Assembly: GCF_019204045.1 (NCBI RefSeq)
Contig: NZ_JAGSPC010000001.1
Location: 1,612,001-1,676,000 of the forward strand
Source: Erythrobacter crassostreae
GTDB taxonomy: Bacteria > Pseudomonadota > Alphaproteobacteria > Sphingomonadales > Sphingomonadaceae
DNA length: 64,000 bases
Direction: 5' to 3'
In this document: one piece after another, positions 44,815-51,829 of the stretch
Numbering within the stretch: position 1 is the first letter of the stretch
Layout: every line of letters starts with the position of its first letter
The notes under the pieces: generated by a model
What the model saw: the letters and a program-made list of their open reading frames with translations, nothing else
Databases searched by the model: none
What the model was told of the DNA's origin: nothing
Position numbers and translations under genes: made by a program

Positions 44815-45492
44815 ATGGAAATCAATGCGCGATTCGACGAGCCTGTGCTCACTCACACCGATCAGATTGATTGGGTCCCTTCGCCGATGGCAGGCGTAGA
44901 CCGCCGCATGCTGGACCGCATCGGCGATGAAGTCGCTCGGGCGACGTCGATTGTGCGATATGCCAAAGGCAGTTCCTTCCCCGAGCATACGCATTCGGGC
45001 GGTGAGGAGTTCATCGTTCTGGAAGGCGTGTTTCAGGATGAGCACGGCGATTATCCGGCGGGCACGTATATCCGCAATCCTGTCGGCACGCACCACGTGC
45101 CCGGTTCAGAACCGGGGTGCACAATCTTCGTCAATCTCTGGCAATTCGATCCGGCGGATCAGGAGCAGATGTCGGTTGATCTAAACTCCCTCAAAGTTGA
45201 GCCTGATCCCAACCGTCCCGGCGTCTCAACGGCGGCAATTGCCGAGCGCGATTACGAAAAAGTGTCATTGGAAGTTTGGGAAGCAAACACCGAAGTTGTG
45301 CTCACCGATACGGGCGGTTTCGAATTGTTGATTCTGGACGGAACGTTGAGACATAAAGATGCAGAATATGCGCGCCACGATTGGATTCGTTGGCCCGCCG
45401 GCAAGGAGGCGAAATTTACCTCTGGCGGCCAAGGCGCGCGGGTCTGGATCAAGCGCGGCCACCTCACAAACATCACCGCACCGGTAAAATAA
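44815..45492 (+). CDS. ChrR-like double-cupin protein
   Basis: 225-residue cupin protein resembling the C-terminal domain of the anti-sigma factor ChrR. The first cupin has a full metal site ([17 protein letters not shown] ... GTHHVPG). The second ([26 protein letters not shown]) has lost the His cluster. The N-terminal zinc domain of ChrR is missing and no sigma factor gene is adjacent, so an enzymatic or storage role is equally possible. Divergent from the MpaB-like gene. Confidence 0.8.
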
Positions 45493-49771: not shown

Positions 49772-49930
49772 ATGAAACTTCCGACACTTGATCTCGCGGC
49801 CATTCCCGGCCTCGAATCCGCTCAGGGCCTGTATGGATCGGTCTCTCAAATCGGCGGTGCCTATGAGGACTCGATCGTGGCCATCATGGTCTATGTTTAC
49901 GACAATATTCCGCCAGATTCGATCATTTGA
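49772..49930 (+). CDS. 52-residue peptide, first gene of an uncharacterised cassette
   Basis: Small protein MKLPTLDLAAIPGLESAQ... ending VYVYDNIPPDSII. Start ATG 49772 follows AAAGGAA at normal spacing. It has no Cys and no signal peptide. The N-terminal half is leader-like, with hydrophobic positions spaced by turns; the C-terminal half is hydrophobic and aromatic (SIVAIMVYVYD). Nineteen bases separate it from the next gene on the same strand. I vaguely recall sphingomonad short proteins ending in a similar IVAIMVYVYD-like segment but know of no function. Precursor peptide, toxin or small regulator are all open. Confidence 0.65.
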   Translation: MKLPTLDLAAIPGLESAQGLYGSVSQIGGAYEDSIVAIMVYVYDNIPPDSII

Positions 49931-49949
49931 TCCGGCGGGGAGTGAACCG

Positions 49950-50933
49950 GTGAAAATCCACTCCGATATCGCGGCGCTGCGGAGCGACCCCGTCTCGCAG
50001 CGCCGCATCGCGGGCCGCATGCGCAAGGCGAAGCAAGTGTGGCAAGATGACACTTGGACTGCGAGAATTCTCGAAGACCTAAGGGCATATGGAGCGGGGT
50101 GTTCTATCGAGAATTGCCCAGAGCTCACCGCGATCACGAACGATCATGCGCTGGCTACAGACTTCGCTGAGTTTTGGATGAACGGATTTGCCTCCGCGCT
50201 GCGCGATGAACCCTTGGGAGAGGTGCCCTTCCTTTATCGCAGCGCCGCAGGCTTTTCGAGCATGCGGATTGCGGCGGCGGGGCGGGCTGCGATCAATCTT
50301 GTGGTCTATGAACGGTGTCAGGACGAAGCGAGAGGCTCGGCAATGAGCGCTCTTTTCGTTGATAGTGAAAGCCACGAGATGGTGCTCACCGGCACCGCAT
50401 CCGCGACGTTCCATGCTGTCTCTGATGGTAACGGCGGACGTCCGACGATCAGGACAAAAGAGCTCAAACTTTCTCCTGGCGACCAATTGTCCCTGAATGG
50501 ACTCCAAGAGAGCCGCCAGATCAATTCAGTCGATGGCTCAATGGTGATGCTTCAGGTTTCTCGCGTTCCCGATAAGCCCGCGCCGTCGTTGGAATATCGA
50601 CTTTCGGATTGTGCGCTGATCAAAACAGTAAGCGGCGACAAAAGCGCGAGCCAACGGTTCGTTGCGCTTGGTGTTTTGCGCGAATTGGGAGGCGGATCAG
50701 CGCGTTCGCTTGAAGCGATGCAAAACACCGCGCTTAACAAGAATGAAGACATCGAAGTGCGTTGGGAGGCCGTCAGGCATTGTCTTGCGGCTGATACGAA
50801 GCGCGGATGGGCGTTGCTCGATCGGCTGATCGTAGATGCCGATGATGATTTGACGCAGCCGGCTCTTAGGTTGCGCGAGCAGCTGGTGGCTCACGAGCCA
50901 ATTCTGGCGCAATTGAGTAAGGATGCCGCGTGA
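49950..50933 (+). CDS. Uncharacterised protein with cupin-like middle and HEAT-like C terminus
   Basis: 327 residues from GTG 49950, which follows GGGGAG by 7 bases. Residues ~1-125 are mainly helical with two cysteines (CSIENC). Residues ~130-205 look like a beta-rich cupin-like unit (MVLTGTASATFHAV; LSPGDQLSLNGL). Residues ~235-312 are helix pairs of HEAT type (FVALGVLRELGGG; EVRWEAVRHCLA). No complete metal triad is evident in the cupin part. It is transcribed with the upstream peptide, and its stop overlaps the next start (TGATG). Confidence 0.78.
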   Translation: MKIHSDIAALRSDPVSQRRIAGRMRKAKQVWQDDTWTARILEDLRAYGAGCSIENCPELTAITNDHALATDFAEFWMNGFASALRDEPLGEVPFLYRSAAGFSSMRIAAAGRAAINLVVYERCQDEARGSAMSALFVDSESHEMVLTGTASATFHAVSDGNGGRPTIRTKELKLSPGDQLSLNGLQESRQINSVDGSMVMLQVSRVPDKPAPSLEYRLSDCALIKTVSGDKSASQRFVALGVLRELGGGSARSLEAMQNTALNKNEDIEVRWEAVRHCLAADTKRGWALLDRLIVDADDDLTQPALRLREQLVAHEPILAQLSKDAA

Positions 50934-51829
50934 TGCCGCTACTACTAGAAAATTCTTCTACCGAGAGCTGTTCACTGCAAGAATGCATCGAAGCGCTCTC
51001 GATCTGCGAGTTCGATCCGCGCGATCCCGAAAGCACAGCGGTGGCCGCCGATTGGCTCAGACGGTTGACCAACAACCGCGAATTTCTGGCTGATATGTTG
51101 ATCGATAGACTGGCTGGCCGGACGCAGGGCGAGGTTGATAGCGGCTATGGTCCTCAAGCCATCGTGCTCAGTCCAAAGCGCGGCAATACCTTTCTGCGCG
51201 CGAATATCTGGCCTGCCGAGCACGATCTGTGTTTCCGCAACAGCGGAGCCAAGAGCTTCGTTTACGGAGAACCGCACGACCACAATTTCTCTTTCCTAAC
51301 CAGCGGCTATTGCGGGCCAGGCTATCGCAGCGATTACTTTGAATATGACTATGAGGCCGTGACAGGGTTTTCGGGTGAAAGCGCTTCGCTGAAATTCATT
51401 GAGCGCAGCGCCCTGAATGAAGGCAAGCTGATGCTTTACCGCGCGCACCGCGATGTGCATTCGCAGTTGCCGCCTGAAAGCCTTTCAGTTTCGCTCAACG
51501 TGATGCATGTCGATCCGGCACAAGGGTGGTTTGATCAATACGCCTTTGATCAGGAGCGCCGTCTGGTGACGAAAGTCCTTAGCCCCAATGCGACCGAAGC
51601 ATTCTTGCGATTGGCTGTGGGAATGGGGACCGGCGAAGCGCTGGATTTTGCCGATTGGGTAGGGCGAAGCCATCCGAGTGACCGGCTGCGTCTGGCTAGT
51701 TTCGAGGCAAGAGCGGCGAGATCGATTGACGCTGCCGAGGAGGATGCGCTTTGGCGATCCGGTGAACTGGGCGGAGGCAACATGGTCGCTCAGATCGCAA
51801 AGAAACGGCGTGCGCTGCTCCGCGCCTAG
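50933..51829 (+). CDS. Uncharacterised His-rich cupin-like protein
   Basis: 298 residues from ATG 50933 (GTG 50930 is possible). The central part carries a likely metal site: E113-x-H115-x-H117 (GEPHDHNFSF), then H172, H176 and H192 (YRAHRDVHSQLPPESLSVSLNVMH). This suggests an oxygenase- or isomerase-like cupin. The N-terminal ~60 residues (RDPESTAVAADWLRRLTNN) are helical. I recall similar proteins in sphingomonads, sometimes mislabelled transposase, but know of no function. Coupled to the preceding gene; its stop is shared with convergent ruvX in CTAG. Confidence 0.78.
   Translation: MPLLLENSSTESCSLQECIEALSICEFDPRDPESTAVAADWLRRLTNNREFLADMLIDRLAGRTQGEVDSGYGPQAIVLSPKRGNTFLRANIWPAEHDLCFRNSGAKSFVYGEPHDHNFSFLTSGYCGPGYRSDYFEYDYEAVTGFSGESASLKFIERSALNEGKLMLYRAHRDVHSQLPPESLSVSLNVMHVDPAQGWFDQYAFDQERRLVTKVLSPNATEAFLRLAVGMGTGEALDFADWVGRSHPSDRLRLASFEARAARSIDAAEEDALWRSGELGGGNMVAQIAKKRRALLRA

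Follow-up and report, generated by a model that had tools for sequence, protein, structure and literature searches.

Three adjacent genes in the window, by which we mean the whole 64,000-nucleotide stretch of DNA that was analysed, probably form a RiPP-type peptide-modifying cassette, in which P3, a putative enzyme of predicted thiol-dioxygenase fold, and its inactive paralogue P2 would act on the short peptide P1. We favour this reading because the peptide family keeps its N-terminal block and varies its core, because P3 has the predicted fold of a metalloenzyme and P2 is a paralogue that lacks the site, and because exporters adjoin the cassette in some clades. Whether the cassette represents a new RiPP class, in which a thiol-dioxygenase-fold enzyme works with its own inactive paralogue on a thiol-free peptide, is in our judgement evenly balanced. 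If it does, the 3-His iron site would have found a new use, for example in oxidising aliphatic or Tyr residues of the core, and the cassette would yield one conserved molecule derived from the peptide in Erythrobacter-type bacteria and a diversity of exported peptides in other lineages. The protein family, which occurs in 145 of the 396 genomes sampled from the order and has database entries called transposase or hypothetical if they have a name at all, looks peptide-modifying; if true, this adds a kind of enzyme to those of peptide natural products, with the thiol-dioxygenase fold turned to a non-thiol substrate and accompanied by a pseudo-enzyme partner.

Results

Layout of the cassette

The window is chromosomal, and its relatives mark it as Erythrobacter-like. 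The features of the cassette are collected in Table 1. P1 carries its own RBS-like stretch (AAAGGAAA) 5' of its ATG, 19 bases separate it from the GTG of P2, and P2 and P3 overlap by one base (TGATG); this arrangement had been described in the earlier note, and the ORF coordinates agree with it exactly. Two thioesterase-superfamily genes on the opposite strand flank the cassette on one side and a convergent ruvX on the other. A promoter scan gave 0 matches against 0.9 expected, and a terminator scan stayed at chance level, with 2 matches against 2.9 expected. A ChrR-type cupin (Cupin_7) gene lies at 44815-45492 of the window, about 4 kb off the cassette, and no link between the two was seen.

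Table 1. Coordinates of the cassette genes and their parts in the window
Feature	Position	Strand	Basis
P1, 52-residue precursor-like peptide MKLPTLDLAAIPGLESAQGLYGSVSQIGGAYEDSIVAIMVYVYDNIPPDSII	49772..49930	+	ORF and RBS-like stretch; conserved in relatives; pN/pS <1
Leader block of P1, residues 4-23 (PTLDLAAIPGLESAQGLYGS)	49781..49840	+	mean entropy 0.87 bits over 39 distinct peptides; alignment A6
Core block of P1, residues 32-44 (EDSIVAIMVYVYD), hydrophobic	49865..49903	+	
P2, 327-residue partner protein, GTG start	49950..50933	+	predicted thiol-dioxygenase-type cupin fold without His triad, with C-terminal HEAT-type helices
P2 beta-barrel, residues 95-227	50232..50630	+	AF2 secondary structure
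P2 C-terminal HEAT-type helices, residues 231-326	50640..50927	+	AF2; HEAT_2
P3, 298-residue putative metalloenzyme, ATG start, H115-D-H117 and H176	50933..51829	+	
P3 cupin barrel with three-His site, residues 76-215	51158..51577	+	predicted fold; His conservation
P3 C-terminal HEAT-type helices, residues 220-298	51590..51826	+	AF2

P1, P2 and P3 form a discrete unit

The three genes are gained or lost together. By tblastn, P2 and P3 occur together in 57 of the 58 loci L001-L058, a set in which some genomes are counted twice as they were fetched from two collections, and the exception (L052) ends at a contig edge; P1 is present in 55 of the 58, and a diverged peptide was read by eye in L056 and L057. 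Across 91 genomes of the genus (G000-G090) P1 and P3 are both present in 52 and both absent in 38, and P1 stands alone in one, the fragmented G005. Internal stops were seen in four of 56 genus peptide matches (G005, G035, G043 and G1306). We checked 13 genomes that lack the cassette. In every one the thioesterase and ruvX matches are separated by 62-262 bases, and tblastn detected no trace of P1, P2 or P3 between these flanks; a weak P3 match (E 3.9e-4) occurs at another place in the genome of one of the 13, G002. Given this joint presence and absence and the clean empty sites, we take the three genes as one unit and the thioesterases as landmarks; the latter were also considered as part of the system and rejected, since in all 13 genomes without the cassette they are still found next to ruvX.

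The pairing extends to more distant relatives, as P2 adjoins P3 in 102 of 103 P3-bearing loci (100 by profile, L086 and L096 by reading), the only unpaired locus being again L052, cut at the contig end. The 145 matches in the order were obtained with profile A1, two of them being weak (G002 and G313), and every genome listed as matching belongs to the window's own family. The same holds for the class-wide sample, where the family accounts for every match (3 of 289 genomes). Profile A5, which is broader, detects 15 of 398 phylum genomes, of which 13 fall within the family and two outside it (G848 and G1006); in the class of G1006 the count is 2 of 229. Relatives are also found on plasmid records of Alteromonas stellipolaris and Vibrio sp. 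ED002, and protein databases returned 1816 entries with P3 as the query and 2980 with profile A5 (of 8000 candidates scored), of which 120 were listed per query. Phage cargo was considered and set aside, as the Alteromonas P3 has no match in the phage collection.

P1 is a conserved peptide with a leader and core pattern

P1 is under purifying selection. Its pN/pS relative to the window copy is 0.11-0.63 in 48 of 48 comparisons, a set that includes duplicate genomes; the other 10 loci are L001 itself or lack an ungapped match over 40 residues. Neither Pfam nor NCBIfam matches P1. Across the 39 distinct close peptides the leader block and residues 32-44 are conserved, the latter at 0.93 bits, and are separated and followed by a variable linker (residues 24-31, 2.25 bits) and a variable tail (residues 45-52, 2.15 bits); M39 and Y43 are found in all 39. 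A looser version of the N-terminal motif IDxxxLPxL is also found in distant clades, where the hydrophobic C-terminal end is replaced, for instance by LCLGVVVAVLLAL, DVVDIIIAVITGSGD or FDYIIGVAILIYEIYPNG, and in a 30-row peptide alignment no column reaches 90% conservation. Judged by eye, the type of core tracks the P3 tree, which uses 63 of 83 rows with close Erythrobacter rows left out, and in which several deep forks are weak and four branches long; among its peptide labels both L095 rows carry the same one by a script fault, and L140 is shown without peptide. The leader-plus-core organisation of a RiPP precursor is therefore seen at the level of sequence, the motif being kept while the core type changes between clades. 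The proposal that the N-terminal half is conserved and the C-terminal half variable holds between clades and fails among the 39 close peptides, in which both blocks are conserved, and that the core is as conserved as the leader among these close relatives counts against the RiPP reading.

A regular absence of a short upstream ORF from relatives of the two large proteins, which the earlier note had held up against its own interpretation, did not occur. A peptide scores at HMM E<1e-3 for 70 of the 97 distinct P2 copies, and 24 of the other 27 are accompanied by a leader-like peptide of weaker score (E 0.001 to 7.2, judged by eye). Of the remaining three, L140 has a peptide that was found by reading, and L027 and L078 represent fragments of disrupted P2 genes. 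When the peptide HMM was run on 626 upstream regions of other genes as a control, the single match at E<1e-3 was itself a cassette peptide, that of L122, in which P2 had gone unannotated by the gene caller. These HMM counts are used here because a regular expression (motif plus hydrophobic tail) proved too narrow, finding 66 of 97 cassettes versus 14 of 626 controls. P1 lies 11-36 bases from P2 for 38 of the 39 distinct peptides, and 119 bases from it in L027. G1257 (L165) has P2 and P3 with no leader-like ORF in front, and just upstream of this pair lies a gene for a Cupin_8/JmjC-type protein (L165:7073-8020). For G1006 (L163) and G848 (L164) the peptide was chosen by visual inspection.

P3 is a putative metalloenzyme

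AF2 predicts for P3 a thiol-dioxygenase-type cupin followed by C-terminal HEAT-type helices, and VIA-align and Foldseek rank thiol dioxygenases first, with other cupin families as candidates too. This predicted fold makes the earlier description of the third protein as a putative metal oxygenase more precise. In alignment A3, where an 82% redundancy filter and a length filter leave 78 of 100 distinct P3 relatives alongside the window copy, H115 and H117 are each conserved in 78 of 79 rows and H176 in 76. Of the metal pattern first proposed, these three His residues stand; H172 (60/79) and H192 (44/79) are less conserved, and E113, kept in 5 of 79 rows only, falls away.

Thiol dioxygenases have a Ser-His-Tyr outer-sphere motif. 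Two bacterial CDO-like proteins show it as S-x-H-x-Y, and the P3 rows (S187 in 75/79, N189 in 73/79, M191 in 55/79) mostly read S-x-N-x-M/L/V/I at the stretch paired with it, a pairing made by motif order and not by superposition. Pfam CDO_I has no match among the 79 P3 rows at E<=0.1, and hhalign of P3 against the two CDO-like proteins gave no significant match, for which reason the assignment of P3 as an enzyme rests on the predicted fold and the conservation of the His residues. As judged from its sequence, P3 is not a plain thiol dioxygenase. PDB sequence searches with A1, A3 and A5 returned no P3 relative (best E 1.1, 0.083 and 0.41, respectively). HEAT_2 is matched by 13 of the 79 rows at E<=0.1, and the window copy is not among them. 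An equivalence of P3 R89 with CDO R60, suggested by equal spacing to HxH, was dropped because P3 has helices between the strand and HxH; the weak hhalign pairing, which puts the strand elsewhere, also opposes it.

Three P3 relatives have a broken His triad. The copy at L134:9075-9992 has R, Y and N at the triad, and H176 is changed to R at L137:9805-10716 and to Q at L138:9724-10632. All three belong to one clade, whose peptides end in DDN-rich cores such as DDNHAVLMPCLFPFALLD and whose members L132, L133 and L098 keep the triad; perhaps the enzyme was lost together with a change of the core in L134, L137 and L138.

P2 is a paralogue of P3

AF2 predicts the same layout for P2, a thiol-dioxygenase-type cupin with HEAT-type helices, and hhalign of P2 versus P3 gives E 6.3e-6 over 245 columns. 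At P2 positions 142, 144 and about 193, which were matched by eye to the P3 triad from hhalign, His is found in 25, 5 and 5 of 80 P2 rows, respectively, and HxH is found somewhere in 17 of the 80. By profile comparison and predicted structure, P2 is a paralogue of P3 without the metal site. These 80 rows make up alignment A4, namely the window copy plus 79 of the 85 P2 references that passed filtering; L001, whose copy is identical to that of the window, and L094, L102, L104, L125 and L140 were omitted. HEAT_2 is matched by 46 of its 80 rows at E<=0.1, the window copy reaching only E 0.053. A PDB search with A4 gave six matches below E 0.01, each of them to a designed alphaRep repeat protein and each at the C-terminal end of P2. 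The cupin-like and repeat regions that had been assigned to the second protein are therefore predicted there and are shared with the third, and what had been called a binding protein is better described as a paralogue of P3 lacking its metal site. Neither P2 nor P3 has a Pfam or NCBIfam match to an RRE/PqqD leader-binding domain.

Neighbours of the cassette in distant relatives

Beside the window cassette we found no exporter or protease, and no sigma factor or OmpR-type regulator. The earlier remark that no transporter or protease is adjacent thus holds at the window, and some relatives do adjoin exporters. On the Alteromonas plasmid (L146) the order is a Yip1 protein, HlyD, an ABC ATPase (as annotated), a MacB-type permease, two short peptides, P2, P3, an ABC ATPase and an ABC-2 permease. 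In G155 (L112) a C39-peptidase ABC transporter and a HlyD-like gene, the latter recognised by eye, are divergent from the peptide, P2 and P3, and the peptide has a double-glycine-like leader. Two cassettes follow one another in G446 (L111/L095); an ECF sigma factor precedes them, HlyD comes immediately after the second P3, and an FtsX permease lies at a greater distance. In the P3 tree one of the G446 copies clusters with the Alteromonas P3 (98/98).

Of the 40 loci L106-L145, 15 show a match to OmpR-type regulators that is co-directional with P3 and begins no more than 365 bases after it (e.g. L115:10277-10999, L136:8344-9006 and L140:8968-9576). L107, which has an ordinary response regulator further off, is not counted among the 15. 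The three OmpR-type genes scanned have Trans_reg_C and no receiver match. An ECF sigma factor is found upstream in L107, L111 and L116. At L107:6618-7801 and L111:5143-6278, both second-copy cassettes, the ECF sigma factor gene (Pfam-scanned in L111) and a second gene, by its position possibly an anti-sigma factor, lie directly upstream of the peptide.

The P3 of the Vibrio sp. ED002 plasmid is short and lacks the HEAT-type end, and the protein encoded upstream of it does not match HEAT. A peptide candidate is found downstream only; a 59-residue ORF overlapping the end of P3 (L147:12644-12823) could be the cassette peptide.

Discussion

A model for the cassette

Based on our data we propose that P1 would be a precursor whose N-terminal block (IDxxxLPxL...GLFGS) serves in recognition and whose hydrophobic C-terminal part is the core, and that P3 would be a non-haem metal enzyme, presumably of Fe(II), which uses its 3-His site to oxidise or otherwise modify the core. 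P2 and P3 probably act as a pair in which P2 is inactive, and the HEAT-type domains may hold the leader and present the core to P3. Cores of other kinds may be served by these enzymes in the more distant clades, where some cassettes lie beside exporters or a DNA-binding regulator, as for secreted bacteriocin-like or signal peptides. The metal identity, the P2-P3 complex, leader binding, the modification of P1 and the function of the product are all inferred. The RiPP-like interpretation of the earlier note is supported, as the peptide, the protein of metalloenzyme fold and its paralogue co-occur and the leader is kept while the cores change. Several results weigh on the other side: P2 and P3 show no RRE/PqqD domain, the window cassette adjoins neither exporter nor protease, three P3 relatives have a broken His triad, HxH occurs in 17 of 80 P2 rows, G1257 has no leader-like ORF before P2, the Vibrio candidate peptide is downstream, and four of 56 genus peptide matches carry internal stops. 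Erythrobacter-type genomes have a conserved core and no exporter next to the cassette, for which reason the product there is probably a fixed molecule, perhaps internal or signalling.

Thiol oxidation of the peptide cannot be the general reaction, as P1 of the window has no Cys and several distant peptides have neither Cys nor an internal Met; judging from the peptide sequence, the reaction in the window is probably not thiol oxidation either.

Comparison with known systems

P3 was compared with cysteine dioxygenase, 3-mercaptopropionate and mercaptosuccinate dioxygenase, PCO and ADO. It shares with these thiol dioxygenases the predicted type of cupin fold and the three-His site, and unlike them it has a C-terminal HEAT-type domain, adjoins a peptide gene, mostly reads S-x-N-x-M/L/V/I at the stretch paired by motif order with S-x-H-x-Y, and is not matched by CDO_I at E<=0.1. 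The lack of Cys in P1 argues against the window peptide being a thiol substrate, other substrates being possible.

Peptide-derived cofactors such as PQQ (from PqqA) and mycofactocin arise from a short precursor with a conserved Tyr-bearing core and are not known to have an adjacent exporter. The window cassette resembles them in all three respects and differs in that no radical SAM enzyme or PqqD-like protein was recognised among P2 and P3. With the export loci of bacteriocins and signal peptides (C39-peptidase ABC transporter; MacAB-type) the family shares exporters beside peptide, P2 and P3 in some distant members; unlike such loci, the window cassette has no adjacent exporter and its core is conserved in its clade.

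A further parallel is offered by the RiPP systems of MNIO/DUF692 enzymes with a partner protein and of PbsQ, a cupin-like hydroxylase described as related to a JmjC-domain protein (PMC12257519). The likeness lies in a short precursor with an N-terminal block, a metalloenzyme-like protein with a partner protein and exporters in some loci, and the difference in the predicted thiol-dioxygenase fold of P3 and in a partner, P2, that is a paralogue of the enzyme and carries HEAT-type helices. In the open-licence literature we found, among the matches listed, nothing on the P1-P2-P3 family and no RiPP with a thiol-dioxygenase-fold enzyme.

Alternative readings

P1 might instead stay unmodified and serve as the ligand or partner of a P2-P3 complex that acts as a sensor or chaperone (for oxygen, metal or redox state) with a regulatory output, a reading that we consider unlikely and still the most serious of the alternatives. 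Thiol dioxygenases of the PCO/ADO type are known as oxygen sensors, and the conserved core of close relatives, the OmpR-type regulators behind P3 and the ECF sigma factors in L107, L111 and L116 would all suit a regulatory device. P1, however, has no N-terminal Cys that could make a PCO/ADO-like degron, exporters adjoin some of the relatives, and cores differ between clades while the enzymes stay alike.

Less probable again, and in our view improbable, is a toxin-antitoxin or immunity pair, in which a membrane-active hydrophobic peptide would be neutralised through binding by P2 and P3. The hydrophobic C-terminal ends and the precise presence or absence of the unit are consistent with it. Such a pair would leave the conserved 3-His site of P3 unexplained, the N-terminal motif of the peptide is conserved, and the five P2/P3 proteins scanned have no PADLOC match, on which ground a defence system was likewise rejected.

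That the short ORF is a mere translational leader, an attenuator for P2, seems very improbable. Its position, 19 bases 5' of P2 in the window and similarly close for 38 of the 39 distinct peptides, is what one might expect of an attenuator, but its two blocks are conserved at the amino-acid level, its pN/pS is 0.11-0.63, and the Alteromonas locus has two peptide ORFs.

Finally, relatives of P3 bear the names 'transposase', 'putative ISXo8 transposase', 'hypothetical' or 'uncharacterized' among the matches listed, and NCBI and UniRef names are the support for a transposase, which is ruled out for practical purposes by the predicted thiol-dioxygenase-type cupin fold, by domain searches that found no transposase domain in P3 or the 79 rows, and by its genomic behaviour, namely a single copy in its own genome (G000, 84% complete) and in most matching genomes and a fixed position, between the same neighbouring genes, in the genomes of the genus that were checked. 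The naming appears to be a spreading misannotation.
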